Of a stretch of DNA of 64,000 bases, positions 1,274 to 45,843 are shown one piece after another. The stretch covers positions 124,001 to 188,000 of the forward strand of contig VRMN01000010.1 in the NCBI GenBank assembly GCA_008690995.1. The letters run 5' to 3'. The notes below the pieces were generated by a model. That model did not search any database. It was not told where the DNA came from and saw only the letters and a list, made by a program, of their open reading frames with translations. Both the position numbers and the translations under genes were made by a program. The first letter of the stretch is position 1, and every line of letters begins with the position of its first letter. Source of the stretch: Porphyridium purpureum (lineage: Eukaryota > Rhodophyta > Bangiophyceae > Porphyridiales > Porphyridiaceae).

Positions 1274-4200
1274 TGTTGTATCCTTTCCTTCTGAGAGATG
1301 CAAGTGCGGGTTGTGCACGTGCCTTTAGGAACTCAACCCTGCCAAGACGAAAACTCAATTTCTTCAACAAATTCCGTTTGTTTAACTTCACATCTCTACC
1401 TAAAAGTATGAGCTGAAGCCTGCCAAACGACTCGCCATCCTGCTTTCATACTCTGCTCTCAGCCCACTCGAAACCGGGTCAAGTGCGTCGCACCACGCCC
1501 CTTCGCACTCGCAACCCCCTTTTCCGAAACAACCCCAAGGTTTCAAACCAAGCCGACAAAGCGAATCACCTCAAGCAAGGGTCGCGTTCAAACACTTCCC
1601 CTTTTTAGACACCTTGCTTGACCTCTTGCTCAACATGGTCAAGTACTTTCCCAGTCTGTAAGAAGCGCGCTAATGACTTGTTGCTTTTCACCTTGGTAAG
1701 CGCGTCTGCTAGATTATCTTCACCCCTAATCCAGCAGATTCTTGCAATTTCTTGCCGCTGAAAAGCCTCTCTGATGACTGCTAAATCCAATGCGAGACGC
1801 TTCTCTGTAGTAACTCGGCTGGTCGTCACCGAATCAAAGATGCATTTGCTATCTGTGAATAAGTGCAGCTCCACTTGTTGTTTGAGGCTGTGCAACAAAG
1901 CTTTCACATATAATCCGGCATCCAACGCATCGCTTAGGGCCAGCACTTCTGCTCCTAAAACGCTCCTCACGATTCTGCGAGTCTTCTTTGATGTCCATAG
2001 AAGCGGCACGCCAGTCCCATTGTTATCGCACAAAATGACGCAATATCCAACCTGGGATGACAAGTCCTCATTGTTCCCGAACGCTGCGTCTGAATATACT
2101 CGGAGAGCAAGCTTGGTGCTCAAGTTGGGAACTAGCAGCTTAGTGTCGAGACCTACCACGTTTCGTGCCATCGATATCAAGTGGTTTGTTTTGTCCCTGT
2201 CAAATGTGCTCTCCGTAACTTGCATCAATTGTCCTGTGATATAAGTAGTAAGTGGGCTGGTGAGTGCGCTCAACCAAGCCCACTTGCCTCTGATCGTTTG
2301 GAGCTCTTTGTAGCTATTCACCTTTGTATCTTGGTCAAGCAACACCTTCAAGAATGCCTGTTGATCAATTTCCAGCATTCCACGAACAAGCCTCATAGAT
2401 TGGCCGGCAAATCGCAAAGGAGGGCCGTCGTCCACCAAGAACTCTCTTTCCTTCACGTCAAACCTGTTCTCAAATGTTTTCAAGACATCACTCAAGTGAT
2501 TTCCGCCTCCCGCAATAATATCGTCGACGTAAATACCGAGGAGTTCAGCTTCGCTGGTGATAAACGCGCAGGGATCGGTTCCTTGCACCAGATTTCGCTC
2601 TTGCAAATCATTCAGTACTGTTTTAGACCAGTATGTGGGTGCGTCCACCAATCCATACAAAGGTTTCACCAATTTCCAATATTTCATATCACCTTTTCGG
2701 TTGTACTCGGCAGGCGGCAAGACGTAAATGGCTCTGCTCAAATTCTCGCTTTGTAGAAAAGCTTGCTTAACGTCTTGCGTCCACAGCTGCAGCCGGCGGT
2801 GTCGCGCCAGTGCGAGTATTGCCCGCATGGTTACAAACTGTAGCGTGGGTGCTTCAGGAACTTGCTCGGCTTTGTCACGGTCTACATGACCCAGAATAGT
2901 AAGTCTTGCCTTCGGTGAGCCGTCAGCTTTGACAGTCAAAACCCATTTGGTGCGTAGCAGGTTAGCGTTTGAGGGCAGATGTGAGACGTCCTCAAAAACG
3001 TTCCTTGCGATCAAGCCTTGGAGCTCAGATGCTTTTGCTGCTTCAAATACTGTGTCCGACTCATCATTGAGGTAGTACAAGTCTGGTGTGGCGAGTCCAG
3101 ATGTTCGTTCACGAAACGGTCGAACAACTGCTACTGATAGCGTCATCTGTGTACTGTTTTTGTGGTCTCGTACCACAGCTATGTTACGGTCGTACTCAAT
3201 GCTCACCAGTGTCATGGGGCCTTCCCACAGTTTCCGTTTGAAACGATAGACCTTGACCAAGTCACCTGGTTTCATCGCAACCTCCATGGGGTACTTCCCG
3301 CTCAACGCGCGATGAAGTCTCTCCATCGCTACGAGACTCTCATATTCCGTTCTGATTGTTCGCATTACGTGCATTCTTGCGCGCTGATCCAAGGATGCCA
3401 TCATATCGGTGCCCAGGATAGTTCGTGGCGTTACTCCAAACACCAGCAACGTTGGTATAAAACCACTTGGATTCATCGTGTCGTTCAAAACTTTTACGCA
3501 CAGTTCGAGAAGCAGGCTGTCCGATAGAGCATCACTGCCTGGTTCAGCAGAGAGACGACTATGCACGCGTCTAAGCGGCCCATGTACTTGTTCTCCACGT
3601 CCGAGTTGCCAATGGGCTTCCACCCCAATAGGTACCACACTTATGCCATGAGACTGCGCGGTCGAGGTGAAACCCATACCGATAAACTCTGAGCCTTGGT
3701 CTACCCGGAGTTCGTGTGGTAATCCGCTCGTAGTGCATACCCATGTTGCAATGAAAGCATCCCATACTGTCTTGTTTGACTTGTCTTTCAAAAAAACTGC
3801 CCTTGTATATCCGGTGTGAACACAAACAGCCTGCAGAACTGGTTTGTTGTTCAGGTAGAACACATCCACTTCGTGGACTTCGTCATCGGCCGGAAGCTCT
3901 TCAACAAATCTCACATGCTCCTCTTCCTCATCACTTGCTTTTCCGCTTCCCGCTTCCTCGTCTTCGGCTTCTCCTGTTGCAAACATCTCTGTGAACCTGA
4001 TGTCATCTGCCTCGTCAGCGCGTGGGCACTCGCGAAACAGATGGTACATTGACTTGCACTTGAGACAACGTAAAGTTTTCCCGTCGCGTCCCTTTCTGTT
4101 CTTTCGCTTCGAGTACTTGTTCGTCGCAAAGAATGTATTGTTTGTTGGTTCATCTGCTGGCATGTTCACAATCCCTAAGCGGCAGCGCTGAACGAAGTGC

Positions 4201-5612
4201 TGCAGGCTATTCGGCGGGTCGTTCAATACATTGAATGCCCATGGCTGCCCTCTAACCGCTCCCTGGAGCGTGCTCACAAGCACTTCCTCCGCCTGCATTC
4301 CCTTAGGCAGCCGTCTCTGCAGCTTCTGTGCTTTCGCTATGAGCGCATTAAAAGCTTCGAGGGTTGAGCCGCCTATGCTGTCATCAAACCGGAGTGCCCT
4401 GAATTCGCTCATGCCCAATTGTTCGCCAGCGAGACCAAACAAACGGTTCTTCAGAACTGTGAAGACCTCCGTCGGTGAGATGTAGTCCGTTGCCTTCATT
4501 GCTGTTGTCCATATACGCAAAGCTTCCCCTCCTAACACCAGAAAAATACATTCGACCTGCGCCTCTCGCGGAGCTTGCACTACCCTGCACGCGTTCTGAT
4601 AAAACATCAACGTCTCCTCCGCGTCGTCGTTGTAATCCCCGGTGAAAAGCGGGGCCTTATGTAGCAACTTGCTAAGCGCGTCCGGCATTTTACCTGCAGT
4701 GTTGGCCAACGCCCCGACATGTGACCCTTGTGCGGACGCTGGTTCAGTCTGCGCCGTCTGCGCAGATGCTGTCCTGCCCTGCTGCCCAATGGAACGCCCA
4801 TACGTCACGAAGTCACTCCGGAATTGCTCACTCCGTGCCAGTGTTTCCAGCAGCTTATCGCGCAGGCTCAAATCCCCGGACTTGGAGACTGGCACACCAC
4901 GGGCTTCCTAAAACTGCTTGACTTCCTTTCGCTGGATAGGCGACATATTGTCAATGATTTCTGCCGTCATCAACTCTTTGTACTCTTCCTCCAGTTCATG
5001 ACCTTTCAGCCCTTGAAGGCTGTTTTTTATCTCCACCCAATGATGGTACAATTGGCTCATTGCCAGTGCGTTGCTACCTGCCGCAGCTGGTGTTGTACCA
5101 GAGCCCTGCACTGAGGACCGTCCAAATTCAGGCGCACCGCCACTCCCGCTCCCTGTGGCCGCTGCGGCGAATTCTTGTCCAGCCGTGTCATGCGTCGCCC
5201 TTGCTGCCATGGCTCGCGTCACACGTTCAGTCATACGGTCCGTCATTGTCGTTCCGTACGCTCAATACCTTTCAAGCTCTTAATTCATGAATGTTGTAGC
5301 CTTTCCTTCTGAGAGGTGCAAGTGCGGGTTGTGCACGTGCCTTTAGGAACTCAACCCTGTCAAGACGAAAACTCAATTTCTTCAACAAATTCCGTTTGTT
5401 TAACTTCACATCTCTACCTAAAAGTATGAGCTGAAGCCTGCCAAACGACTCGCCATCCTGCTTTCATACTCTGCTCTCAGCCCACTCGAAACCGGGTCAA
5501 GTGCGTCGCACCACGCCCCTTCGCACTCGCAACCCCCTTTTCCGAAACAACCCCAAGGTTTCAAACCAAGCCGCCAAGGCGAATCACCTCAAGCAAGGGT
5601 CGCGTTCAAACA
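1274..5612 (-). mobile_element. Ty1/copia-type LTR retrotransposon, young, mostly whole
   Basis: Two direct repeats of about 320 bp (1274-1594 and 5293-5612) begin with TG and end with CA and flank a minus-strand coding region at about 1.6-5.25 kb. Parts read in copia order: a gag region with a CCHC zinc knuckle, an integrase segment, reverse transcriptase with the IYVDDI box, and RNase H. The two LTRs differ at only about five positions, so the insertion is recent. Flanks carry a similar 5-bp word (CACGC and CACAC). The element looks mostly whole with at least one break in its coding region. It sits about 240 bp upstream of the first WD40-EH gene and splits that gene's upstream segment. Confidence 0.9.
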
Positions 5613-5851: not shown

Positions 5852-7984
5852 ATGGCAACCGCGCTGACTTTGGTGGGGCACTCAAATGTGGTGGCCGCGG
5901 TGGACTTTTCGCCGGATGGTCGGTTTATCGTGTCCGCGAGCAATGACAAAACAGTCAAGGTGTGGGACGCGCACACGGGTGTGCGCGTGCGCACCATAGA
6001 CGGGCACTCGGGTGTAGTGCGGGCAGTGCACTTTTCGCCCGATGGCCGGTTCATCGCGTCCGGCAGCGATCACAAGACGGTGAAGGTGTGGGACGCACAC
6101 ACCGGCGCATGCGTGTGCATATTGACGGATCACTCAGAGGCGATAACTGCGGTGCGCTTCTCACCCGATGGCCGTTTCATCGTGTCCGCCAGTTTGGACG
6201 AGACGGTCAAGGTGTGGGACGCACATACCGGCGCGTGCACTCGCACCATGAACGGACACTATGAATTGGTCTGGGCGGTTCATTTTTCGCCCGATTGCCG
6301 GTTTATTGCGTCCGGCAGCGAAGACAGAACGGTCAAGGTGTGGGACGTATACACCGGCGCGTGCATTCGCACCATCTTGGGGCATTCAGGTGTGGTGCGG
6401 ACGGTGCACTTTTCGCCCGATGGCAAGCGCATCGCTTCCGGCAGCGAAGACACGACGCTGAAGCTGTGGGACGCACATACCGGCTCATGTGTACGCACCA
6501 TGACGGCGCACTCAGGTGTGGTGCGGGCGGTTCATTTTTCGCCCGATGGCCGGTTCATCGCGTCCGGCAGCGAAGACCAAGCGGTCAAAGTATGGGACGC
6601 ACACACGGGCGCGTGCGTGCGAACCATCACGGGGCACTCAAATTCGGTACGTTCGGTGCGTTTTTCCCCTGATGGCCGATTCATCGCGTCCGGCAGTGTT
6701 GACAAAACGGTCAAGGTGTGGGACACAAGCGACCTAAAGTGTGGCCCCGAAGGAACGTCAGGTGACGCTAACGAGGAAAAATATTGCAAGGACTATTGGG
6801 AGGTCGCCGACTCGGATGGGAGCCAAGCGTTGGACGCTCAGGAGGCGCTGGCGTTCTTCTCGAAGGCGCGGCTGCCGATGTCGGTGCTGCATCGGATGTG
6901 GGATGCGATAGCAACAGCTCGCGGCAAGCGTGCGCTTACCTATGACGACTTTGTGCTCGCACTGCGGTGGGTTGCGCTGGCGCAGAACGGCGAGGAGGCG
7001 AGCCTCGCACGTGTGCAGCAAGGTTCGCTGTCACTGCGCGCCAAGATCGACGTACCCGGGTGGAACCCGTTCGACAGGGTCGCGCGCACGCTGTCGGAGA
7101 CTGCGCGACACGAGGAGTACTGGAAGATGGCCGACGCAGACGGAAGTGGGGAGGTGGACGTGCATGAAGCGGTAGCGTTTTTGTCCAAGTCTGGACTGCG
7201 GAACCGCGTGCTGAATGAGATCTGGGGCCTTGCAACCAGCCAAGGGATGTTTTCGTCGCTGGACACGGAGCGGTTCAAGACTGCGCTGCGTCTGGTAGCA
7301 ATGGCACAGAAGGAAATGAAGCTGGATGTGAAGGAGGCGGCAGGTGGCGAGATGGAACTGATTGCGGACTTCAAAATCAATGCCGCGAAGCCGGCACCGG
7401 AACCGATGCCAGAGCCGATGCCAGAGCCGATGCCAGAGCCGATGCCAGAGCCAATGTCGAAGCCGATGCCGAAGCCAGTACCGAAGCCGATGCCGAAGCC
7501 GGTGCCAGAGCCGGTGCCAGAGCCGGACACCGACTTGGAGAGGATGTTTGCGGAAACTGCGCTGGATGATCTGACATGTGAGCAGCTGGCTCGAGTGCTG
7601 GAAGAGGTCTTGGAGGTTAACGGGGCCTCGGTGAGGAATGTGAGGGAGCGCCGGGTGAGCGGTGAGGCACTGCACGACATGAGGGAGTTCCAGGAGTTTG
7701 TGCAGCTTTCATTCCCGGACAAGAAGAGAGTTGAAAAGTGGGTTGCGGGGCGGAAATCGTACGAAGGATTCGAGGAATACCTGTTTGGCGTGCTTGGTGG
7801 TGATTCGGAGCGCGCCGAGCGTGCGTGCGCTTTGCTTTTAGAGTCTCACGCTGTGTCGAACTTGGACGAGTGGTTGTGGTTTCGGAAGCAGCCTAGCAAG
7901 CGAACAAGTATGAGGACGATTGTGCGGCGCTTCCCGGAGCTCGGGACGTGGCCGGGCGGGCCGGACGCGGAAGATTGGACGTAG
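5852..7984 (+). CDS. WD40-EH-EH-SAM-like protein, copy 1 (seven WD repeats)
   Basis: This 710-residue protein starts at the first ATG after a leader conserved in all copies. Residues about 8-300 are seven WD40 repeats of 42 residues, each close to [20 protein letters not shown] followed by SGS-x-D and [11 protein letters not shown], enough for one propeller. Two EH domains follow (about 305-385 and 420-500); the second has an EF-type loop (DADGSGEVD) and the IWGLA helix typical of EH folds. Between them is an NPF tripeptide (GWNPFDR), the classic EH ligand. A Pro-Glu/Met spacer (about 515-560) leads to a region resembling a SAM domain and a conserved tail ending near EDWT. EH domains usually act in endocytosis and membrane traffic; WD propellers bind partners. 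The combination is not one I recognise, so the function is unknown. The domain calls are firm for WD40, good for EH and tentative for SAM. Confidence 0.9.
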   Translation: MATALTLVGHSNVVAAVDFSPDGRFIVSASNDKTVKVWDAHTGVRVRTIDGHSGVVRAVHFSPDGRFIASGSDHKTVKVWDAHTGACVCILTDHSEAITAVRFSPDGRFIVSASLDETVKVWDAHTGACTRTMNGHYELVWAVHFSPDCRFIASGSEDRTVKVWDVYTGACIRTILGHSGVVRTVHFSPDGKRIASGSEDTTLKLWDAHTGSCVRTMTAHSGVVRAVHFSPDGRFIASGSEDQAVKVWDAHTGACVRTITGHSNSVRSVRFSPDGRFIASGSVDKTVKVWDTSDLKCGPEGTSGDANEEKYCKDYWEVADSDGSQALDAQEALAFFSKARLPMSVLHRMWDAIATARGKRALTYDDFVLALRWVALAQNGEEASLARVQQGSLSLRAKIDVPGWNPFDRVARTLSETARHEEYWKMADADGSGEVDVHEAVAFLSKSGLRNRVLNEIWGLATSQGMFSSLDTERFKTALRLVAMAQKEMKLDVKEAAGGEMELIADFKINAAKPAPEPMPEPMPEPMPEPMPEPMSKPMPKPVPKPMPKPVPEPVPEPDTDLERMFAETALDDLTCEQLARVLEEVLEVNGASVRNVRERRVSGEALHDMREFQEFVQLSFPDKKRVEKWVAGRKSYEGFEEYLFGVLGGDSERAERACALLLESHAVSNLDEWLWFRKQPSKRTSMRTIVRRFPELGTWPGGPDAEDWT

Positions 7985-12060: not shown

Positions 12061-12990
12061 GCTTTTGTAGCGCGCAGCCTAGCACGGAGCCCTTATTATG
12101 ACCGCAGTTATAACAAGGGTTGTGGGGAAGCGTGCTCTTGGATCTTTCACAACAGAAGATTCGCAGGTAACGGAGAGGCAGCTCATGTTATTGATCCGTA
12201 ACGGACTTGGGAATACACCTTTTCGTGTTTTCTGGTGGTATCTAGAGGGGAGCCCGATCATGTGGGGATAGCGGGAACTATCTGTGGATGTTGGTGTGCA
12301 GAGTACCATATCGGCGCACTGGCCCGTGGACAGGACGTTACGCGACCAAACTCAGCTCATCTAATTTTTCAGCTGGCCCTACCCAGGGACACGCTGGCAT
12401 TGATCACGATTCACCACCACGATTCTAAAACACACACCTTATCAGTTACCGGTTGGACGGTTTATCGACTACACCTTAACCGTTACCTGACCCGCTACTT
12501 TTGCACGCACCTCAACACGCATACGCGCATTGTGCGTGCACTTATGGCGCTACGCGTTCAAGGGTGACGCAAGTGGTGGTCATAGAAAACACCCGCGCCT
12601 CGATGCAGGCTCGCGCAGACGCGTTCTGAGTCTGCGCTGTTTTCCATGCGTGCTGCGCGAGCCGCAGATGCAATGCGCCGTGGGTGAGGAAAACCGCCAG
12701 TCGCGATTTTCATGGCCCCGTTTCGATGTTTCATATGTCAATTCGACGCCAGATGCGGCGTTTCGGGTGGAATGTCGCGATAGAAAATGCGAGCATGCAC
12801 GAGTAATGCGGCGATAGTTGGATGTCGGGAATCGCGAGTGACGTCTGGTTTCGCCGCACGCAACGGAGAGAGCGCGCGCGAGTAAGCGGAAGGGGCGGCG
12901 GTGAAGAGTTGTGCAGGGACGGACGGGTGTGTGGTTCACGCAAGCGGTAGCGTGTCGGTGCGGCGACGCGCGCGTGGATCGGAAAGGGGC
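12061..12990. repeat. Upstream segment of duplicated unit 2
   Basis: This matches the other upstream segments: an AGAAGATTCGCAGGTAACGG-type block near 12.15 kb (compare 22.48 kb), the CGGTT/TTAACCG cluster near 12.44-12.49 kb, the GC-rich block near 12.60-12.71 kb, and a box near 12.75 kb reading GGCGTTTCGGGTGGAATG that is shared by all four genes 110-240 bp before the start codon. Confidence 0.6.
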
Positions 12991-15075
12991 ATGGCGCGTC
13001 CGTTGACTTTGGTGGGGCACTCGGATACGGTGGTCGCGGTGGACTTTTCGCCCGATGGCCGGCTCATCGCGTCCGGCAGCTGGGATAACACGGTCAAGGT
13101 GTGGGACGCACACACCCGCGCTTGTGTGCGCACCATGGACCGCCACTCTCGTAAGGTGTGCGCGGTCCACTTTTCGCCCGATAGCCGGTTAATCGCGTCC
13201 GGCAGCCATGACAAAACGGTCAAGGTGTGGGACACGCACACCGGCGCGTGCGTGCACACATTGACGGGGCACTCAGATTTTGTGGAGGCGGTTCATTTTT
13301 CGCCCGATGGCCGTTTCATCGCGTCCGGCAGCGATGACGAGACGGTAAAGGTGTGGGATGCACACACGGGCGCGTGCGTGCACACGTTGACGGGGCACTC
13401 AGATTGTGTGGAGGCGGTTCGCTTTTCGCCCAATGGTCGATTCATTGCTTCCGGCAGCGATGACGAAAGGGTCAAGATTTGGAACGCGCAAACCGGCGCG
13501 TACGTGCGCTCATTGATCGGGCACTCGGATTGGGTTAAGGTGGTGCACTTTTCGCCCGACGGCCGGTTCATCGCGTCCGGTAGCGACGACGAGACGGTAA
13601 AGGTATGGGATGCAAACACTGGTGCATGCGTGCGCACATTGACGGGGCACTCAGGGGCGGTGAGCGCGGTGCACTTTTCGCCCGATGGCCGGTTCATTGC
13701 TTCCGGCAGCGACGACGAGACGGTTAGGGTATGGGACGCAAACACCGGCGCGTGCGTTCGCACATTGACAGGGCACTCAGGCGCGGTGGGCGCTGTGCAG
13801 TTTTCGGTCGACGGCCGCTTTATCGCGTCCGGTAACGACAACAAGAAGGTGAAGTTGTGGGACACAACCGACCTGAAGTGTGGCCCCGAAGGAACGCCAG
13901 GTGACGTTGACGAGGAAAAATATTGCAAGGACTATTGGGAGGTCGCCGACTCGGATGGGAGCCAAGCGTTGGACGCTCAGGAGGCGCTGGCGTTCTTCTC
14001 GAAGGCGCGGCTGCCGATGTCGGTGCTGCATCGGATGTGGGATGAGATTGCGATAGCTCGCGGCAAGCGTGCGCTTACCTATGACGACTTTGTGCTCGCA
14101 CTGCGGTGGGTTGCGCTGGCGCAGAACGGCGAGGAGGCGAGCCTCGCACGTGTGCAGCAAGGTTCGCTGTCACTGCGCGCCAAGATCGACGTACCCGGGT
14201 GGAACCCGTTCGACAGGGTCGCGCGCACGCTGTCAGAGACTGCGCGACACGAGGAGTACTGGAAGGTGGCCGACGCGGACGGAAGCGGGGAGGTGGACGT
14301 GCATGAAGCGGTAGCGTTTTTGTCCAAGTCTGGACTGCGGAGCCGCGTGCTGAATGAGATCTGGGGCCTTGCAACCAGCCAAGGGATGTTTTCGTCGCTG
14401 GACACGGAGCGGTTCAAGACTGCGCTGCGTCTGGTAGCAATGGCACAGAAGGAAATGAAGCTGGATGTGAAGGAGGCGGCAGGCGGCGAGATGGAACTGA
14501 TTGCGGACTTCAAAATCAATGCCGCGAAGCCGGAACCGGAACCGATGCCAGAGCCGATGCCAGAGCCAATGCCGAAGCCGATGCCAGAGCCAATGCCGAA
14601 GCCGATGCCGAAGCCGGTCACTGACTTGGAGAGGATGCTTGCGGAAACTGCGCTGGATGATCTGACGTGTGAGCAGCTGGCTCGAGTGCTGGAAGAGGTC
14701 TTGGAGGTTGATGGGGCCTCGGTGAGGAATGTGAGGGAGCGCCAGGTGAGCGGTGAGGCACTGCACGACATGAAGGAGTTCCAGGAGTTTGTGCAGCTGT
14801 CGTTCCCGGACAAGAAGAGAGTTGAAAAGTGGGTGGCGGGGCGGAAATCGTACGAAGGATTCGAGGAATACCTGTTTGGCGTGCTTGGTGGTGATTCGGA
14901 GCGCGCCGAGCGTGCGTGCGCTTTGCTTTTAGAGTCTCACGCTGTGTCGAACTTGGACGAGTGGTTGTGGTTTCGGAAGCAGCCCAGCAAGCGAACAAAT
15001 ATGAGAGTTATTGTGCGGCGCTTCCCGGAGCTCGGGACGTGGCCGGGCAGGCCGGAGGTGGAGGACTGGAAGTAG
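12991..15075 (+). CDS. WD40-EH-EH-SAM-like protein, copy 2 (seven WD repeats)
   Basis: The start is taken as the ATG at 12991 (MARPLTLVGHS), which aligns with the starts of the other copies; the frame is open further upstream but that part is conserved leader. The product has 694 residues: seven WD40 repeats (about 8-300), EH1, an NPF motif (GWNPFDR), EH2 with an intact DADGSGEVD loop, a shorter Pro-Glu/Met/Lys spacer than copy 1, and the conserved SAM-like C-terminal region. From EH1 to the stop it is almost identical to copy 4 and very close to copy 1. The WD repeats differ from copy 1 mainly at the residues after GHS, after the first V, and on either side of D in SGSxDx. Function unknown. 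Confidence 0.9.
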   Translation: MARPLTLVGHSDTVVAVDFSPDGRLIASGSWDNTVKVWDAHTRACVRTMDRHSRKVCAVHFSPDSRLIASGSHDKTVKVWDTHTGACVHTLTGHSDFVEAVHFSPDGRFIASGSDDETVKVWDAHTGACVHTLTGHSDCVEAVRFSPNGRFIASGSDDERVKIWNAQTGAYVRSLIGHSDWVKVVHFSPDGRFIASGSDDETVKVWDANTGACVRTLTGHSGAVSAVHFSPDGRFIASGSDDETVRVWDANTGACVRTLTGHSGAVGAVQFSVDGRFIASGNDNKKVKLWDTTDLKCGPEGTPGDVDEEKYCKDYWEVADSDGSQALDAQEALAFFSKARLPMSVLHRMWDEIAIARGKRALTYDDFVLALRWVALAQNGEEASLARVQQGSLSLRAKIDVPGWNPFDRVARTLSETARHEEYWKVADADGSGEVDVHEAVAFLSKSGLRSRVLNEIWGLATSQGMFSSLDTERFKTALRLVAMAQKEMKLDVKEAAGGEMELIADFKINAAKPEPEPMPEPMPEPMPKPMPEPMPKPMPKPVTDLERMLAETALDDLTCEQLARVLEEVLEVDGASVRNVRERQVSGEALHDMKEFQEFVQLSFPDKKRVEKWVAGRKSYEGFEEYLFGVLGGDSERAERACALLLESHAVSNLDEWLWFRKQPSKRTNMRVIVRRFPELGTWPGRPEVEDWK

Positions 15076-16489: not shown

Positions 16490-16940
16490 TGCATCCACCT
16501 CCAGAGCTGCGCGGTCGAGGGCGGGGCGGGTTGCGGTCACACAACATGCGCGCACGTCCATGCAGACGCGCACAGACGCGTTCTGATTCTGCACTGTCTA
16601 TGGTGCGTGCTACTCGGCAGCAGGCGCGATATGTCATCGGGCGGGAAAACGCCAGTCGCTATTTACACAGCCGCGTTACGATATTTCGGGCCTCCATTCG
16701 GCGCCAGATCCGGCGTTTCGGGTGGAATGGAAGAAAATGCGAGCGCGCGCGCTTAGCGGCGGTGGATGGATGTCGGGAATCGTGATTGGCGTCTAGTTTC
16801 GCCGCACGGAACGGAGTGGGCGCGCACGAGTGTGTGGGAGGGCCGGTGGTGAAGGCCTGTTTGTGGACGGGCGGGTGTGCGGTTGCCGCAAAAGAACACG
16901 GGAAGTGCGCGGCGACGCGCACGTGAAGCGAAAAAGAGGG
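16490..16940. repeat. Upstream segment of duplicated unit 3
   Basis: The shortest upstream segment. It retains the GC-rich block near 16.55-16.66 kb, the GGCGTTTCGGGTGGAATG box near 16.715 kb and the conserved leader. The distal block seen in units 1, 2, 4 and 5 is absent or lost. Confidence 0.6.
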
Positions 16941-19136
16941 ATGGCGATCGCGTTGAATTTGGTAGGGCACTCGTATGCGGTGGTCGCCCTGGACTTTTCG
17001 CCCGATGACCGCTTCATCGTGTCCGGAAGCTTTGACGACACGATCAAGGTGTGGGACGCACACAGCGGCGCGTGCTTGCGCACATTGACGGAGCACTCAG
17101 ATTGGCTGAGTGCGGTTCACTTTTCGCCCGACGGCCAGTTCATCGCGTCCGGCAGCCATGACGGAACGATCAAGGTGTGGGACGCACACACCGGCGCGTG
17201 CGTGCGCACATTGACGGAGCACTCAAATTTGGTTTTCACGGTGCGCTTTTCGCCCGATGGCCGGTTCATCGCGTCCGGCGGCAGCGACAGAACGGCCAAG
17301 GTGTGGGATGCATATACCGGCGCGTGCGTGCGTACCGTCATGGGGCACTCAAATTCCGTAAGTTCGGTGTACTTTTCGCCCGATGGCCGCTTCATCGCGT
17401 CCGGCAGCTGGGACAAAACGGTCAGGATGTGGGACACACACACCGGTGCATGCGAGCACACATTGACGGGACACTCAGGTGCGGTAAGCGCGGTGCACTT
17501 TTCGCCCGATGGCCGGTACATCGCGTCCGGCAGCGAGGATACGACGGTCAAGGTTTGGGATGCACAAACCGGCGCGTGCGTGCGCACAGTGGAGGGGCAC
17601 TCAGATGCGGTGAGCGCGATTCACTTCTCGCCCGATGGCCGGTTCATCGTGTCTGGCAGCAAAGACCAAGCGGTCAAGGTATGGGATGCACACACCGGCG
17701 CGTGCGTACGCACATTGATGGGGCACTCGAACTCGGTGCGTGTGGTGCTTTTTTCGCCCGACGGCCGCGTCGTCGCGTCTGGCGGCGGCGACAAAACGGC
17801 CAAGGTGTGGGACACGAGCGACCTCCAGTGTGGCCCCGAAGGAACGTCAAGCGCCGCGGACGAGGAAAATTATTGCAAAGATTATTGGAAGGTCGTCGAC
17901 TCGGATCGGAGCGGAGAGTTGGACGCTCAGAATGCACTGGTATTCTTCTCGAAGGCGCGGTTGCCGATCTCGGTTCTGTATCGGATGTGGGACGAGATTG
18001 CGACAGCTCGCGGCAAGCGCGCGCTCACCTACGACGACTTTGTGCTCGCACTGCGGTGGGTTGCGCTGGCGCAGAACGGCGAGGAGGCGAGCCTCGCACG
18101 TGTGCAGCAAGGTTCGTTGTCCTTGCACGCCAAGATCGACGTACCGGGTTGGAACCGGTTTGACACGGTTTTGCGCACGCCGTTGGAGACAGCGCGCCAT
18201 GAGGAGTACTGGAAGGTGGCTGTCGCAGACGGAAGCGGGGAGGTGGACGTGCATGAAGCGGTAGCGTTTTTGTCCAAGTCTGGACTGCGGAACCGCGTGC
18301 TGAATGAGATCTGGGGCCTTGCAACCAGTCAAGGGGTTTTTTCGTCCCTGGACACGGAGCGGTTCAAGACTGCGTTGCGTCTGGTGGCAATGGCGCAGAA
18401 GGGAATGAGGCTGGATGTGAAGGAGGCGGCAGGTGGCGAGATGGAACTGATTGCGGACTTCAAAATTAATGTCGCGAAGCCGGCGCCCGAGCCGGCGCCC
18501 GAGCAGGCGCCAAAACCGGTGCCGGAGCCTGTGCCAGAACCAGTGCCAGAGCCGGCGCCAGAACCGGTGCCAGAGCCGGTGCCAGAACCGTTGCCAGAAC
18601 CGGTGCCAGAACCGGTGCTAGAGCCGGTGTCGGAGCCGGTGTCAGATCCGTTCAGGCGGTCCCGAAACGACAGCCAGGGTGCTGACTTGAAGAAGACGCT
18701 TGCGGAAACTGCGCTGGATGATCTGACATGTGAGCAGCTGGCTCGAGTGCTGCAAGAGGTCTTCCAGGTTGATGAGGCCTCGGTGAGGAATGTGAGGGAG
18801 CGCAAGTTGAACGGTGACGCGCTGCACGACATGAGGGAGTTTCAAGAGCTTGCAAGGCTGTCATTTCCGGACAAGAAGAAAGTTGAAAAGTGGGTGGCGG
18901 GGCGGAAATCGTACGAAGGATTCGAGGAATACCTGTTTGGCGTGCTTGGTGGTGATTCGGAGCGCGCCGAGCGTGCGTGCGCTTTGCTTTTAGAGTCTCA
19001 CGCTGTGTCGAACTTGGACGAGTGGTTGTGGTTTCGGAAGCAGCCCAGCAAGCGGGCAAATATGAGAGTTATTGTGCGGCGCTTCCCGGAGCTCGGGACG
19101 TGGCCGGGCGGGCCGGAGGTGGAGGACTGGAAGTAG
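16941..19136 (+). CDS. WD40-EH-EH-SAM-like protein, copy 3 (most diverged)
   Basis: The ATG at 16941 ([11 protein letters not shown]) matches the starts of the other copies and gives 731 residues. Seven WD40 repeats occupy about 8-300. EH1 and EH2 follow, but this copy has lost two features present in the rest: the linker reads GWNRFDT instead of GWNPFDR, so the NPF ligand is gone, and the second EF-type loop reads VADGSG where the others have DADGSG, so its first metal ligand is missing. The Pro-Glu/Val spacer is the longest of the four (about 515-570) and is followed by a charged insert (RRSRNDSQG). The C-terminal region remains nearly identical to the other copies. Function unknown; it may be a divergent paralogue with altered EH interactions. 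Confidence 0.9.
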
Positions 19137-33810: not shown

Positions 33811-34020
33811 AGCTAGGGTGATGACCGAAAATGGTTGGCGTCATTTTTGTGCGCGCCCCAAGGGGGGTGGGGGACAGAGGGAAAACCCTTAACCGGTAGG
33901 GTTAGGCGGCATGCGTGGGGTGTGGCCACCAGAAAGCGCGCGAAAGCGGCGGTGTTGCGTGTGCGTGCGGCGTGGCGCGTCCGGGAAGCGGAGAGGGAGA
34001 GAGGGAGAAGGGAGAGGGGC

Positions 34021-37000
34021 ATGTCAGACGATGAGTGGGACTTCGAGAGGGCGTTACGCAGTGATGATGAGGAGGATGGCGGCGGCATCGGCGGTGGTGG
34101 TGATGATGCGCAGCCAGAGCCGCGGCGCGCGCATGCAGTAGCGCTTGAGACTGGTGCGGCGAGTGATGAGCGCTCGTGGCCGCAGCAAGGGCATGATGTT
34201 CTTGGCCGCGATATACTGTGTCGGCAGGACGTGTTCAGTGCTGAAGGAAGGCAGCCATGCTCACAGAAAGAAGCAGTGCGTGTGGATGGGGAGCGGGTGG
34301 GTGTGGGCAAGGCGGCAGCCGATGGTGAGCTTCAGCACTTGCGGCAGCATGAAAATGGTGCCCGGGAGGATGAGCAGGAAGCGGGCGCCGATTGGCTTGT
34401 CGAAAGCACGCCGCCGCTCGATGAAGCGGGCGCCGCGATGCTCATGGAGCGCTTTGTGCAAGCAGAAGAATTCGCAAGCTACAGTCTCGCGCTGTACTGC
34501 GCGCGCGACCGCGTGGCAGTGACAGGAGCCGCGATGGGAACATTGGCTGCCGCCCCAACCGTCACCGTGCGTGTCAGTGGGATGTATGACTTTTCAGCAC
34601 CACTCGCGGCGTACGTCGTCCAGCACCCAGATCAGGCAGTCGCGCAGTTGGAGCGCGTGTTTCTGCGCACGGGGTTCCGTGCAGATCCGCACGCGTTCGA
34701 GCACGACGACGCTGTGAAGATCCGGCTGTTTGATATTCCACACCGCTCAGCCATGCGCGACTCGCTGCCGCCTTCTGTGCGCTCGCTTCGCAAGGCGCAC
34801 GATGGCTCGCTGGTGCAGCTGACGGGCACTGTCGTGCGCGTAGGGGCCGTACGATCGCAAGAGCTGTGGCGCGAAATGAAGTGCATAAAGTGCGCACACA
34901 GATTCGTCCTGGAGGCCGACATGAGCCAACCAAAGCTCGACTTTAACCCGCCCAGGCGGTGTCCATCGGTGTATGATCGGCCGTGCACGGGTACGACCTT
35001 TCGCATGACCCGTTCTGGCACGGTGAACGACTACCAGATTATTCGGCTCCAGGACAAGCCGGACGCGGGCGCGCGCCCGCCGGCTCCGCTAATTGTGTCT
35101 CAGGTGGCCTCGGACAACGTTGGTGATCCGCACGACCAAACCCGCGTCGCAGCTGCGCCTGAGCAGGTGCCGGTTGGAGATCGACCAGCCGATACGACGC
35201 CGTGTAGCATTGCCGTTGTGCTCTGCGATGAGCTTGCGGACACGTTAAAGGCCGGCGACGACGCGGTGATCTGCGGCAAAGTATTTCATAGGTGGGTGCG
35301 CAACTTGGTGCCCAACTCGCGCGCGACCGCAGACTATGCGCTGCTTGCCTCGCATGTAGAGAACGCCAACGCGGCGAAAGACGCAACGTTTGGCGGTGCT
35401 TCAGACGGCCGACGGCTAGATCCGGCGTTGATTGACTCGTTCGAGTCGTTCTGGGGCTCCACGAGCAAGTGGAAAAATAAGCTCAAGCTGCGTGATATTA
35501 TTGTGCGCTCAGTGTGTCCGCAGCTGCACGGCATGTACCTCGTAAAGCTGATTGTGTTGCTCACGCTGATTGGGGGCTGCACAGATGCCGACGCGCTTGG
35601 CGCTGCGAATAAGCACGAAACAGCGGCTGCTGGCGCAAAGGTGGACGACACATCGACTCCTTCCCACCGTCACCACCAGCGCGTGCGTAGTATCAGCCAT
35701 TTGCTGATGGTGGGTGACGTCGGCACCGGCAAATCACAGTTGCTTCGCTTTGCGTCACGACTGAGCACGCGCGGCGTACTGACCACGGGCATTGGTTCTT
35801 CCGCAGCTGGGCTCACAGTGACAGCTTCGCGTGAAGCCGGCTCGAATGGTGAATGGGGCCTGGAGGCCGGCGCGCTGGTGCTCGCGGATGGCGGGCTGTG
35901 CTGCATCGACGAGTTTGACAGTATGAAAAGCTCTGAGCGTGCTGCCATGCACGAGGCGATGGAGCAGCAGACACTGTCGGTCGCCAAGGCCGGCATGGTA
36001 AGCACGCTGCAGTGCCGCACCACAGTTATTGCCGCCATCAATCCCCGCACTAGTGCCGCCCGTCTTGACTCACGCTCGTTTGGCGGTGGGGACCACCAAC
36101 AAATGCGCTCGCAATCGCTCCACGTCGGCATGGCGGCGCCGCTCATGAGCCGCTTTGACGTTGTGCTCGTCCTTCGCGACTTGAAAAACAAGCAGCGTGA
36201 CGAGCAGCTTTGCGAATTCATTCTAGACGGATTTGGTTTCGAAGAAGAGCGCGGGTCGCTACGTGCGGCTGCGTGCGCCGATGAGCTGCGCTGTGATGTC
36301 ACCGCGGACGGGCTTTACAAGGATGGCGATGAGCGCCTGTCCAAGGGAAACAGAAGGCCGGTCCACACGGATGACCAGCAGGTTGATGAGTACTTGTGGG
36401 GCATCGCCGACCTGCGCGCGTACTTGGCGTATGTGCGACGACGATTCCATCCACGTATCTCCAAGGCGGCGTCTACTGTGCTCCGTTACTACTACCAGGG
36501 CGAGCGACAGGCGCAAGGTCGCAACGCTGCACGCACCACGGTGCGTCTGCTGCAATCACTTATGCGTCTCACACAGGCACACGCGCGACTTATGTATCGC
36601 CAGGTCGCCGTTGTGCAGGACGCCATGTTTGCCATCATGGCCGTCGAGGCGTCGCTGAACAGCTCGAATCAGTTTTTACGTGACCCAGATTGTTTGCTGG
36701 CTGACTTTCCGAGCCATGCTTTCAAGCAGTACAAGTCATTTGCGCAGACGGTGCTGGTTGCCACTGGTCTCGAAGGCCGCGTGCCGCTTGATGAGACCGA
36801 AGAGGATGTGTTGGAAAGCCGCGACACGGACGAGGAAGCGACAGCTTTACCGCTCGAACTAGACAGAGACGACGACTTGGAAGACGAGCCTTCCGCAAGC
36901 GCACGGCCGAGCTCGTCCGCGGGTTCGCACGAGCTAGGACACAATGCGGCCGGAACCGACCTCGGCAGCGACAACGTAGATCAGCCGGAAATGGAAAGAA

Positions 37001-37371
37001 GCCTCTCGAACTCGTCGCGCGGCAGAAAGTCGGAGAAAAATCCAGCGTGTGCGAGCGACTCAGGTGCGAGCGTGGACGCCAGCGAGCTCGCACTGTCACT
37101 GAGAAAGAAGAGGCGCTTACGAGCGGGAAATGGCGAACCAGCTTTACATCCCATTAGCGAAGAATGCGTTAGCGGTGATGAAGACGGGCAAGGTCATGCT
37201 AGTGGTGCAAAGAACGAGCGCATGGAGCAGGCGCTGATGCCACAAAGGTCTCGAAGTCCGACGGAACCAGCCAATCGTGCTCCGGCTTCAGCTGTTTTAG
37301 ATGCCGCTGGGCCGGTGGCAACGCTCACATTGCCGCCCGATGACGACGAGCTGTTTGAAATTTCAGACTAG
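34021..37371 (+). CDS. MCM9: MCM-family helicase, MCM9-like
   Basis: A 1116-residue protein if it starts at 34021 (MSDDEWDFERAL), right after a purine-rich leader; the frame is open further upstream. An acidic N-terminus leads into the MCM N-terminal domain with a zinc finger (MKCIKCAHRF, then paired Cys). The AAA+ core shows Walker A (GDVGTGKSQ, about 565-573), the block LTTGIGSSAAGLTVTA, Walker B (GLCCIDEFD, D630-E631) and the arginine finger (MSRFDVVL, R711). LTTGIGSS together with LVLADGGLCCIDEF fits MCM9 better than MCM2-7 or MCM8. MCM9 works with MCM8 in homologous recombination and crosslink repair. The last 330 residues are acidic, low-complexity and probably disordered. FANCI, another crosslink-repair gene, lies 21 kb away. 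Confidence 0.88.
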   Translation: MSDDEWDFERALRSDDEEDGGGIGGGGDDAQPEPRRAHAVALETGAASDERSWPQQGHDVLGRDILCRQDVFSAEGRQPCSQKEAVRVDGERVGVGKAAADGELQHLRQHENGAREDEQEAGADWLVESTPPLDEAGAAMLMERFVQAEEFASYSLALYCARDRVAVTGAAMGTLAAAPTVTVRVSGMYDFSAPLAAYVVQHPDQAVAQLERVFLRTGFRADPHAFEHDDAVKIRLFDIPHRSAMRDSLPPSVRSLRKAHDGSLVQLTGTVVRVGAVRSQELWREMKCIKCAHRFVLEADMSQPKLDFNPPRRCPSVYDRPCTGTTFRMTRSGTVNDYQIIRLQDKPDAGARPPAPLIVSQVASDNVGDPHDQTRVAAAPEQVPVGDRPADTTPCSIAVVLCDELADTLKAGDDAVICGKVFHRWVRNLVPNSRATADYALLASHVENANAAKDATFGGASDGRRLDPALIDSFESFWGSTSKWKNKLKLRDIIVRSVCPQLHGMYLVKLIVLLTLIGGCTDADALGAANKHETAAAGAKVDDTSTPSHRHHQRVRSISHLLMVGDVGTGKSQLLRFASRLSTRGVLTTGIGSSAAGLTVTASREAGSNGEWGLEAGALVLADGGLCCIDEFDSMKSSERAAMHEAMEQQTLSVAKAGMVSTLQCRTTVIAAINPRTSAARLDSRSFGGGDHQQMRSQSLHVGMAAPLMSRFDVVLVLRDLKNKQRDEQLCEFILDGFGFEEERGSLRAAACADELRCDVTADGLYKDGDERLSKGNRRPVHTDDQQVDEYLWGIADLRAYLAYVRRRFHPRISKAASTVLRYYYQGERQAQGRNAARTTVRLLQSLMRLTQAHARLMYRQVAVVQDAMFAIMAVEASLNSSNQFLRDPDCLLADFPSHAFKQYKSFAQTVLVATGLEGRVPLDETEEDVLESRDTDEEATALPLELDRDDDLEDEPSASARPSSSAGSHELGHNAAGTDLGSDNVDQPEMERSLSNSSRGRKSEKNPACASDSGASVDASELALSLRKKRRLRAGNGEPALHPISEECVSGDEDGQGHASGAKNERMEQALMPQRSRSPTEPANRAPASAVLDAAGPVATLTLPPDDDELFEISD

Positions 37372-37970: not shown

Positions 37971-37979
37971 AAAAAAAAA
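37971..37979 (-). terminator. RNA polymerase III oligo-T terminator
   Basis: A run of nine T on the minus strand, 22 nt beyond the tRNA 5'-half flank. It suits pol III termination of the permuted tRNA transcript. Confidence 0.7.
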
Positions 37980-38001
37980 CCAAAAGAATAATTCCGCTGT
38001 C

Positions 38002-38117
38002 CTGGAGTCTACCGCACTACCATTGTGCTACGGGGCCCATGCATTCGCATGACCCCGGTAGGAAATTCTTAAAGGCCTCGTCACATGATCAGCGAATCGA
38101 ACCCACAACCATCAGAT
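38002..38117 (-). tRNA. trnW-CCA: Circularly permuted tRNA-Trp(CCA) with a T-arm intron
   Basis: On the minus strand the 3' half comes first. It covers positions 38-61 (38117-38094), then a 32-nt intron (38093-38062, boundary ambiguous by one base), then positions 62-73 (38061-38050). A 12-nt spacer (38049-38038) follows, then the 5' half, positions 1-37 (38037-38002), ending in anticodon CCA. Rejoined pieces fold as a 72-nt tRNA: acceptor GGCCCCG with CGGGGTC, discriminator A; D arm GCAC with GTGC and GG in the loop; loop CTCCAGA; T arm GTGGG-TTCGATT-CCTAC. Weak points are G27-A43 and a G-U at 28-42. Flanks pair over seven positions (38129-38123 with 37995-38001), as expected for processing. 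A TATA-like word lies at about 38152-38161 and an oligo-T tract at 37971-37979. CGGGGTCA is also the 3' end of animal tRNA-Trp. Confidence 0.87.
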
Positions 38118-38592
38118 TACATAACAGCGTGGTTGGGAGGGGGAAAATTACAATATATATAGAGTAATACGTGTAAGGTGGCTTCAGGTTGGCGGGTGTG
38201 CGGAGGCGAAGCGTTTACGGCGTGTGCGTGCAAGGCCGGAACTTGATAGAGAGATGGATAAGTGTGCGACGCAATGGCGCCGCAGGAATAGCGGCGTGTT
38301 GTCTTGTGGTTTGCTTGGATGAGGGTGAAAGCTGACTGGATGATTGGGCCATAGCTTGCAAGGCCGCGGCTGTTTGATCGTAGCCACGTGCGGGTTCCGG
38401 TTTTGAGTTCATGTGAGGTGGCTCATTGCGGTACGCTCAGGATCGAGTGAAGTTATGTCTCGCGTCGAAAGTGTTTCGCCTTCACAGCAGGCATTCAAAG
38501 CTCACCCGGCGAGCAAATGCCTCAGGGCACTGGCTCTGTTGGGTCATGCCCTACCGGCAATCCTTTTCACATTTCTGGCTGTCGTTCAGCGT

Positions 38593-44115: not shown

Positions 44116-45843
44116 TTAAAAGTACAGGTCGTGCTCGCCGGCATTGATGCGCTTGAGCTTGCGCTCGTATGCCTGCTTTGCGCGCTCGCTCCCGATTGTT
44201 TCGCTCTCTTGTTGCACGACCTTTTCACCAAGCGCGCGCGTTCGCTCGGACGCGTAGTCAATCAAGTACTCTTGCAGCGTCAGCAGGCCGTTCGGATGGC
44301 AGTAGTTATGGATGTCGCCCTTCTTGGCAATCTTCATGAATGCCTCTCCCGTGCGCCCCTTGCGATAGCAGGCTGTGCACCAGCTCGGCACAAATCCGTC
44401 CTCCATGAGATCGTGCACAATCTCGTCCATCGCGCGGTGGTCCTGCAGTGTAAATTGTGCGAGCATGTCCTGAGATTCTTCTTGGCACTTTTCTGGCAGC
44501 ACGTTGGCCTTCTTGTCCTCCTTGGAATACGAGCCGACATCTGTCTTGCTGCCGGCGCTCATCTGGCTGACACCCAAGTGCAGCAGCATCTTTCGCGTCT
44601 GCGGGTTTTCGCGCGTGCTGAGGATCATGCCGGTGTACGGTACGGCACAGCGAAGCACAGCCACAAGTTTCATGAAGTCGGCGTCGCTCACTGGGTTGGG
44701 CCCGCCGTTGAGCGAATCTGGCGCCCCGAGCGCCGGCTGGATGCGCGGAATACTGACCGTGTGCGGGCCGGCGCCGTACGTCTGGTCTAGGTGCTGAGCG
44801 TGCTGCAGCATGCCTAGCACCTCGAAACGGTAGTCATATAGGCCAAACAAGGCACCGATGCCCACATCGTCGACGCCCGCGGTCTGCGCGCGATCCATTG
44901 TCAGCAGGCGATAGTCATAGTCGCTCTTGGGGCCCGCCGGGTGGACGCGCCTGTACGTTTCGCGGTGGTACGTTTCATGGAACAGCGTATAGGTCCCGAC
45001 GCAGTTGGTGGCCTTGAGCCGCCGGAAATCTGACACGGAAAGCGTCGGAATTTCAACATTAATGCGCCGAATGCCACCGCACGGCTCGGTGCGCACTTGC
45101 GACACAATTTGGAGTGCCTCGAGCGTCTGTTCGAAAGAATACTTGGGGCTCTCGCCGGCGACCAGCAGCAGCCGGCGGTGGCCCTGCCGTTGGAGCGCCT
45201 CCACCTCGCGCACGAGCTGGTCATTGGAGAGTGTGCCGCGCGGCGCGGCGTGGTTTGACGCGCGGAACGAGCAGTACGTGCACTGGTTGACGCAGTACGA
45301 GCCCACATACAGCGGCGCGAACAGCACGATCCGGTTTCCGTAAATGCGCTCCTTGATCCGGAACGCGGTGTCAAAAAGCAGCTGCATGAGCAGCTTGTTC
45401 GCCGAGTCGACATTCAGCAGCGTGGCAGCCTCGAGCACCGTCAAGCCTTGCACGTACTCCGAGCCGGACTGCGGCGGCACCGGCGCGCCTGATGTGCCTA
45501 CCTTGAGCAGCGCGTGGTCCTCTGCCTTTTGCAGCAGGTCCTTGACGAGCACGGCGTCCTTTGCATTTTCCTTTGTGACAAACAGCGCCTCGTGGATCTC
45601 GGCCTCGCGCACAATGTCTCGCGGCGACTTGAACACATGCTGAGGCTCCTTCTCGACGGACCACTTTGCGCCGCGCCGCGGCACATCATCCCACCGCGCG
45701 CGGCGGCCGTACCGCGCCATCCCCACCATCCTCATCACGCCCATCGCGCACCCGGCGGCGAAGCCCATGCCTCCTCCGCTCGTCACCATCCCGGCCGCGC
45801 CCACGGCGCTCCCAACCACCGCACTCATTGTCATCGCTGCCAT
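44116..45843 (-). CDS. hydG: [FeFe]-hydrogenase maturase HydG
   Basis: A 575-residue radical SAM protein. HydG cleaves tyrosine and builds the CO and cyanide ligands of the hydrogenase H cluster. The radical SAM motif CxxxCxxC is at C184, C188 and C191 (CVNQCTYC). The C-terminal auxiliary cluster motif CX2CX22C, which separates HydG from the thiamine enzyme ThiH, is intact at C489, C492 and C515 (CTAC, then HNYCHPNG). Other blocks are LLLVAGESPKY and GIGALFGLYDYRFE. The first 65 residues are Met, Ala, Gly and Arg rich and look like an organelle targeting peptide. It is head to head with hydE, with 1.19 kb between start codons. No hydA or hydF was seen in the window. Confidence 0.93.
   Translation of the reverse strand: MAAMTMSAVVGSAVGAAGMVTSGGGMGFAAGCAMGVMRMVGMARYGRRARWDDVPRRGAKWSVEKEPQHVFKSPRDIVREAEIHEALFVTKENAKDAVLVKDLLQKAEDHALLKVGTSGAPVPPQSGSEYVQGLTVLEAATLLNVDSANKLLMQLLFDTAFRIKERIYGNRIVLFAPLYVGSYCVNQCTYCSFRASNHAAPRGTLSNDQLVREVEALQRQGHRRLLLVAGESPKYSFEQTLEALQIVSQVRTEPCGGIRRINVEIPTLSVSDFRRLKATNCVGTYTLFHETYHRETYRRVHPAGPKSDYDYRLLTMDRAQTAGVDDVGIGALFGLYDYRFEVLGMLQHAQHLDQTYGAGPHTVSIPRIQPALGAPDSLNGGPNPVSDADFMKLVAVLRCAVPYTGMILSTRENPQTRKMLLHLGVSQMSAGSKTDVGSYSKEDKKANVLPEKCQEESQDMLAQFTLQDHRAMDEIVHDLMEDGFVPSWCTACYRKGRTGEAFMKIAKKGDIHNYCHPNGLLTLQEYLIDYASERTRALGEKVVQQESETIGSERAKQAYERKLKRINAGEHDLYF

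Follow-up and report, generated by a model that had tools for sequence, protein, structure and literature searches.

The locus on the minus strand at positions 38161-37971 of the window (the whole 64-kb stretch of Porphyridium purpureum DNA analysed here) raises the question of whether this alga encodes its tRNA-Trp in a gene whose two halves lie in inverted order, one of them being further broken by an intron, and of whether any other tRNA-Trp gene is to be found in the genome.

Architecture of the tRNA-Trp locus

All of the pieces of the tRNA were found, with the 3' half located ahead of the 5' half, in the following arrangement:

38137..38161, minus strand: TATA-type element (TATATATATTGTAATTTTCCCCCTC), resembling elements upstream of other small-RNA genes
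38161-38154, minus strand: TATATATA, within this upstream element
38118..38129, minus strand: predicted 12-nt leader (CGCTGTTATGTA), of which 38129-38124 form an arm of the outer helix; start inferred from the 5S rRNA spacing
38096..38117, minus strand: first exon of the 3' half, tRNA positions 38-59 (ARAGORN join, covariance model R3, pairing)
38064..38095, minus strand: T-loop intron, 32 nt, most likely at 59/60 according to splicing geometry; placed at 61/62, it would be 38093-38062
38050..38063, minus strand: second exon of the 3' half, positions 60-73, with the discriminator A at 38050
38038..38049, minus strand: 12-nt spacer between the acceptor ends (TGCGAATGCATG; ARAGORN join, R3)
38002..38037, minus strand: 5' half, positions 1-37, with anticodon CCA (ARAGORN join, R3; no second copy found)
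37980..38001, minus strand: trailer, in which ACAGCG (38000-37995) pairs with the leader
37971..37979, minus strand: T9, a Pol III-type terminator

The 3' half as a whole spans 38117-38050 and is split by the 32 nt. When the 5' half was joined to the 3' half minus these 32 nt, a 72-mer was obtained, which ARAGORN called tRNA-Trp(cca). This bore out two claims of the first-pass annotation, namely a 3' half lying upstream of the 5' half on the minus strand with a 12-nt spacer, and a 72-nt tRNA with acceptor stem, D arm and CCA anticodon. The unjoined window gave no match in ARAGORN, nor in Rfam at gathering cut-offs, so standard tRNA finders miss such genes.

After rearrangement, the conserved positions U8, G18G19, U33, and T54T55C56 were present. 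The acceptor stem comprised seven pairs, one of them G-U (G2-U71), and the D stem four. The T stem, which had been described as perfect once the 32 nt are removed, was complete with its five pairs, but one of these is G-U (G51-U63). The anticodon stem, on which the first-pass annotation was silent, was the weakest, with three Watson-Crick pairs, a U28-G42 pair, and a G27-A43 mismatch. Upon unconstrained folding of the precursor minus the intron, the outer helix and the acceptor, D, and T stems were formed and the anticodon stem was not (-40.8 versus -30.8 kcal/mol for the free and the expected fold, respectively). A promoter-like element upstream (38161-38137) and a T-stretch downstream (37979-37971) were present, in agreement with the TATA-like word and oligo-T of the first-pass annotation, and neither was found between the halves. 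The first T4 of the gene starts at 37985, within the trailer; no T4 run was found from the predicted start to the end of the 5' half.

The arrangement was also examined with covariance models. R3, a model of 37/38-permuted tRNAs, was built from six sequences with Trp left out (permuted Cys and Thr, together with Lys, Phe, Arg, and Ala permuted in silico). On both strands of the 64-kb window, at E ≤ 10, it returned a single match, at 38117-38002 on the minus strand (53.6 bits, with a rough E-value of 1e-13). R2, a type IV model that included Trp and was partly built from linear Lys and Phe, gave a partial match of 41.3 bits at the tRNA-Trp in the same window, as well as two weak matches of 13 and 8.4 bits, the former covering the leader and 3' half of the tRNA-Trp gene.

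Seven of the window's open frames each carry between 3 and 20 TGG codons, for which a tRNA-Trp is needed. Among the neighbouring genes, a HydG-like [FeFe]-hydrogenase maturase is encoded at 44116-45843 (minus strand); among the best 120 of 8000 matches, its closest relatives were from Porphyridium aerugineum (77% identity) and Erythrolobus australicus (71%). An MCM helicase is encoded at 33835-37371 (plus strand), with MCM9 as the best match among solved structures. Three long WD40-repeat proteins of 710-768 aa, perhaps a gene family, are encoded on the plus strand at 5852-7984, 12901-15075, and 16830-19136, and a retrotransposon-like frame at 1605-4895 (minus strand) contains an integrase-core domain, just under the cut-off, and an RVT_2 reverse transcriptase domain.

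tRNA genes and the shared upstream element in the genome

The genome searched was the 22.16-Mb assembly (46 contigs). The 72-mer found its own locus only (one candidate scored). The Trp pattern from the D arm to the anticodon, with at most 2 mismatches, gave 10 matches versus 7 for a control. The tRNA-Trp locus itself was matched exactly and a tRNA-Cys with a single mismatch; of the other eight, six were copies of the same repeat and two were unlike tRNA. The pattern from the anticodon to the T stem gave one match, with 2 mismatches and unlike tRNA. The Rfam model RF00005 gave 17 matches, 12 of them over the cut-off (63 of 475 candidates scored); for 13 of the 17, ARAGORN gave an identity, in some cases only once pieces had been joined, and none was Trp (the others being L012, L015, L017, and L018). 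Overall, the linear tRNA-Trp(CCA) that the first-pass annotation had named as one part of the grounds for rejecting its reading was looked for genome-wide and not found: these heuristic searches (72-mer, two patterns, and RF00005) detected no other tRNA-Trp in the 22.16-Mb assembly, within a scope that leaves aside a linear gene broken in both the D and anticodon arms or lying in an assembly gap.

Six further genes formed ARAGORN cloverleaves once joined in permuted order; since the joins were chosen to restore the tRNA form, these calls serve as a consistency check rather than as proof. The permuted models R1 and R2 were applied to 74 loci, some of them overlapping, which make up a partial and biased sample. 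Cys(GCA) and Thr(TGT), both permuted at 37/38, scored 71.3 and 66.4 bits, respectively, in R1, a model whose training set contained both. Leu(AAG), also 37/38 and outside R1, scored 29.2 bits versus 20-22 bits for several linear tRNA loci. Ser(AGA), read as 37/38 with a D-loop insert, reached 20.4 bits over part of R1, a score that we consider as background because linear tRNA loci obtain about 20-22 bits, and its assignment comes from reading and the join. Two genes showed other apparent junctions:

G000:C2, about 2091230-2091380, minus strand: tRNA-Lys(TTT) (L041), apparently permuted at 59/60
G000:C45, about 401120-401400: tRNA-Asp(GTC) (L032/L039), apparently permuted at about 26/27

For Lys(TTT), in which every pair is standard, R2 gave 65.3 bits; this model discriminates poorly, as linear Lys and Phe, which are partly its source, reach 57 bits. 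A TTTTT stretch soon after the 5' part of this gene would end transcription ahead of any linear reading. In the Asp(GTC) gene, one insert lies at 37/38 and another in the T loop, and the joined RNA was called tRNA-Asp by ARAGORN; it had no match in the permuted models R1 and R2, and was assigned by reading and the join. Ser and Asp are thus both without discriminating model support. On this basis, Cys, Thr, and Leu are clearly permuted and Lys is probably permuted, while the evidence for permuted Ser and Asp is weaker.

Among the linear genes, six contained inserts and gave a cloverleaf on joining: eMet, Arg(TCG), Pro(TGG), which has three inserts, Arg(TCT), Gly(CCC), and Ala(TGC). Of the 12 RF00005 matches over the cut-off, six were called by ARAGORN without any insert and with an ordinary isotype, namely Lys(CTT), Phe, Arg(ACG), Gln, Ala(CGC), and Leu(CAA). 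Arg(TCG) (L014) and eMet (L011) looked permuted by R2, but on reading both proved to be linear, with an intron in the T loop, and were left out of the permuted count. Likewise, L054, tried as Leu(TAA), gave Leu(AAG) when joined, and L008, called SeC by ARAGORN, became Gly(CCC) after removal of a D-arm insert. L012, L015, L017, L018, L044, and L050 resemble further broken tRNA genes and were kept outside the counts of verified joins; CTCCA was absent from five of these six segments, and the one present in L018 lies upstream of the tRNA-like part.

Pattern searches on single arms gave 37 rows for the T arm versus 30 for the reversed control. In the 30 rows examined (29 places), six known tRNA loci were recovered; none of the other 23 places had TATAT[AT] in the 260 bases upstream, and these were regarded as noise. 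The D-arm pattern, with 7 matches versus 23 in the control, was also discarded. Separately, a T-arm-like palindrome at G000:C43:4953571-4953755, about 160 bases from a minus-strand match of the upstream element, may belong to another small-RNA gene.

The pattern of this upstream element, TATATATTTTAATTTTCC, was modelled on the upstream regions of several tRNA genes and searched genome-wide with at most 3 mismatches. It gave 34 matches versus 8 for the reversed pattern. Thirty of these 34 loci were extracted and 27 were read, the remaining three being Trp and, by position, Ala and Leu(CAA). Fifteen of the 30 were found by reading to precede tRNA genes or tRNA-like sequences, four precede 5S rRNA (confirmed by Rfam), and one each precedes a U6-like (L036) and a U3-like (L045) sequence, both under the Rfam cut-offs; no recognised gene was found at the other nine. 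TATATATTTTAATTTTC, which lies upstream of tRNA, 5S rRNA, U6-like, and U3-like loci (L034-L063), is therefore described here as a putative common small-RNA promoter. The Thr gene was missed by TATATATTTTAATTTTCC, and the looser TATATAAAGTTTAAT stands upstream of it. At the four 5S genes, the element begins 29-30 nt ahead of the RNA. A spacing of 30 nt, a rule inferred from the 5S genes alone, would place the start of the Trp transcript at 38129, where the outer helix begins, leaving a leader of 12 nt.

In Cyanidioschyzon merolae, the TFIIIC subunit TFC1 is reported to be absent (PMC3978253, section 5). Here, a 637-aa frame matched the Tau95 (TFIIIC) family with 27.5 bits versus a cut-off of 23.7 bits (E = 6.5e-5, profile positions 66-144 of 144). 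With this Tau95-like frame present, a loss of TFIIIC as in C. merolae was not supported, and the argument drawn from that loss cannot be transferred to this alga; the search concerned Tau95, and the review also names TFC3.

Predicted splicing junctions and proposed maturation

In a bulge-helix-bulge motif, the distance from the cuts is set for each element: the inner stem h, the central helix H of 4 bp, the bulges (two, of 3 nt each), and the outer helix h'. The types of this motif are described in section 8 of PMC3978253. At the Trp 37/38 junction, h' starts exactly at +2/-7, which is the canonical register: CGCTGT (38129-38124) pairs with ACAGCG (38000-37995) through six Watson-Crick pairs and an adjoining G-U, in line with the seven paired positions given in the first-pass annotation. 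Four of the five h positions pair, one as G-U, and the central helix H pairs at one of four positions (C32 with -3). Among 200,000 random position pairs from this window, a fixed-register run of at least six Watson-Crick pairs occurred in 0.0345% of cases, or 0.3% when G-U was included.

For the T-loop intron, four placements were tested, each of which yields an identical mature RNA. At 59/60, h is the whole T stem (5/5), H pairs at three of four positions, and there is no h', whereas placement at 61/62, 60/61, or 58/59 produces mismatches in the inner stem. The boundary is ambiguous, and 59/60 (38095-38064) is favoured on the basis of splicing geometry over the 61/62 join that had been proposed at first. 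As read from the sequence, both predicted Trp junctions, 37/38 and 59/60, fit a relaxed bulge-helix-bulge geometry.

The 37/38 junctions vary from gene to gene. In permuted Leu(AAG), all eight h' positions tested pair, in the same register as in Trp; in Ser(AGA), five h' pairs are followed by a mismatch; Thr has a full H (4/4) and a poor h'; and in Cys both H and h' are poor. The motif is therefore relaxed and uneven. At 59/60, T54 T55 C56 was found opposite GAA, two bases before the cut, in all six of the genes examined. These are Trp, three further genes with introns (eMet, Arg(TCG), and Pro(TGG)), Lys(TTT), where the site is a permutation junction, and Asp, where one of the pairs is G-U. 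This rule is descriptive, since the alignments were set after viewing the sequences. A continuous h' was present in none of the six, and for short introns the h' test means little.

Maturation of such a transcript might proceed as follows. RNA polymerase III would start near 38129 and continue to the T-run, yielding one transcript, from which the tRNA splicing endonuclease would first remove the T-loop intron. The same enzyme would next cut the leader and trailer off at 37/38, the last splice site, after which a ligase could join G37 to A38 and generate a circular RNA. Finally, RNase P and tRNase Z would excise the 12-nt spacer, so reopening the circle, and CCA would be added. The order of these steps (intron, 37/38, spacer) is borrowed from work on the C. 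merolae tRNA-Gly(CCC), and precedent for the pathway is given in sections 6-8 of PMC3978253. With regard to the splicing machinery, two frames matched the tRNA endonuclease family and two matched RtcB, all over the cut-off. The RtcB-family frames are located at G000:C3:263918-265243 and C1:1357653-1358798, in the same nuclear assembly.

Alternative explanations and comparison with known systems

We consider it highly probable that the locus is a functional nuclear tRNA-Trp(CCA) gene, probably single-copy, permuted at 37/38 and carrying a T-loop intron at 59/60. A circularly permuted tRNA-Trp with a T-arm intron, as the first-pass annotation had it, is by far the best reading because of the R3 match, the outer helix in register, and the shared upstream element; it is also supported by the further permuted genes of the genome and by the lack of another tRNA-Trp in our searches. 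Against a functional gene stand the weak anticodon stem and the relaxed motifs, with H pairing at one of four positions at 37/38 and an intron without an outer helix.

The same anticodon stem would suit a relic, that is, a dead permuted copy whose normal counterpart was missed elsewhere, all the more as the searches were heuristic and the assembly may be incomplete (BUSCO of 90.4% for the P. purpureum gene models, if the published assembly is the one searched here; PMC6811547). However, apart from the anticodon stem the arms are intact, as are the anticodon, the terminator, and the promoter-like element, the leader and trailer pair exactly in register, the searches yielded no second tRNA-Trp, and breaks of this kind recur in other tRNA genes of the genome, all of which make a pseudogene very unlikely. 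The inverted order of the halves could also be that of a split tRNA, made as two separate RNAs and trans-spliced, as exists in archaea (PMC3218864); yet the halves are 12 nt apart with no T4 run between them, and a single upstream element precedes the first while a single T-run follows the second, so that we give trans-splicing scarcely any credit. Finally, the published assembly, if it is the one used here, combines long and short reads (PMC6811547), and a single assembly allows for a local change of order. An assembly rearrangement, however, would not yield splicing-motif pairing at the permuted ends, and a chance resemblance is at odds with an E-value of 1e-13 from a model never shown tRNA-Trp and with the same architecture in other genes at unrelated places; either would be extraordinary. 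The permuted, intron-containing tRNA-Trp gene is thus the reading retained below.

Permuted tRNA genes are uncommon, and questions persist over how they arose and what purpose they serve. Their occurrence in another lineage of red algae, where they include what may be the sole tRNA-Trp gene, would point to an old origin within this group rather than to a mere peculiarity of life in acid hot springs. Of wider interest is the apparently scrambled tRNA set of Porphyridium, which would extend this rare phenomenon to a new algal group, in an organism, P. purpureum, that can be cultured in the laboratory. Among the open-access papers listed, as far as titles and the openings of abstracts go, none was seen to report permutation either in the tRNAs of Porphyridium or in a tRNA-Trp. 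Table 1 of a 2014 review lists 34 permuted genes, with no Trp and with C. merolae as the sole red alga (PMC3978253).

When all of these observations are taken together, we lean slightly towards the following picture. The alga, mesophilic and outside the Cyanidiophyceae, would possess a scrambled tRNA set comparable to that of C. merolae, in which the only tRNA-Trp is both permuted and broken by an intron. Its Asp gene, with two introns, would have a junction at about 26/27 that is absent from the 2014 table. One element would drive both tRNA and 5S rRNA genes, thereby freeing the order of internal promoters. One minimal T-loop signal (TTC opposite GAA) would serve as intron boundary in Trp, eMet, Arg, and Pro and as permutation junction in Lys, so that introns and permutations would be interchangeable, and the splicing system may date from a red algal ancestor. 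The Asp junction is not among types I-V of that review (PMC3978253).

Several known systems share parts of this architecture. In the green alga Auxenochlorella, permuted tRNA genes were found after tRNAscan-SE had returned an incomplete set (PMC12633428). The type II genes of prasinophytes and chlorarachniophyte nucleomorphs resemble the Trp gene in their 37/38 junction, inverted halves, and short spacers (PMC3978253, PMC4494063); unlike here, the isotypes given in PMC3978253 are Ser, Cys, Leu, Arg, Asn, and iMet, without Trp, and one gene has an intron, at 27/28. T-arm introns are also found in the multi-intron linear tRNAs of C. merolae, such as tRNA-Ile(UAU), which differs in being unpermuted and in having its T-arm intron at 53/54 (PMC9602550). 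For Lys(TTT), both the isotype and the apparent 59/60 junction match those of the C. merolae Lys(TTT) (PMC3978253, Table 1), and shared inheritance is possible.

Most permuted genes of C. merolae have, as here, a TATA-like sequence upstream, with a T-stretch downstream (PMC3978253). The closest parallel to the combination seen here, of which the first-pass annotation knew no report for Trp, is the type II C. merolae tRNA-Gly(CCC), permuted at 37/38 with a short spacer (7 bp) and a T-loop intron (PMC3978253, Table 1); the pairing of a 37/38 permutation with a T-loop intron was therefore already known, and what is new in this regard is the organism, together with the Trp isotype. Gly(CCC) is encoded by two genes, with a 13 bp intron at 55/56 and a 'no h' motif (PMC3978253), whereas in P. 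purpureum, which belongs to another red algal class, a single Trp gene was found, with a 32 nt intron that fits best at 59/60 and the inner stem kept. Judged from its sequence features, the tRNA-Trp gene is real and very probably functional, a new member of a class already known, of an isotype and in a lineage for which no earlier report was found.
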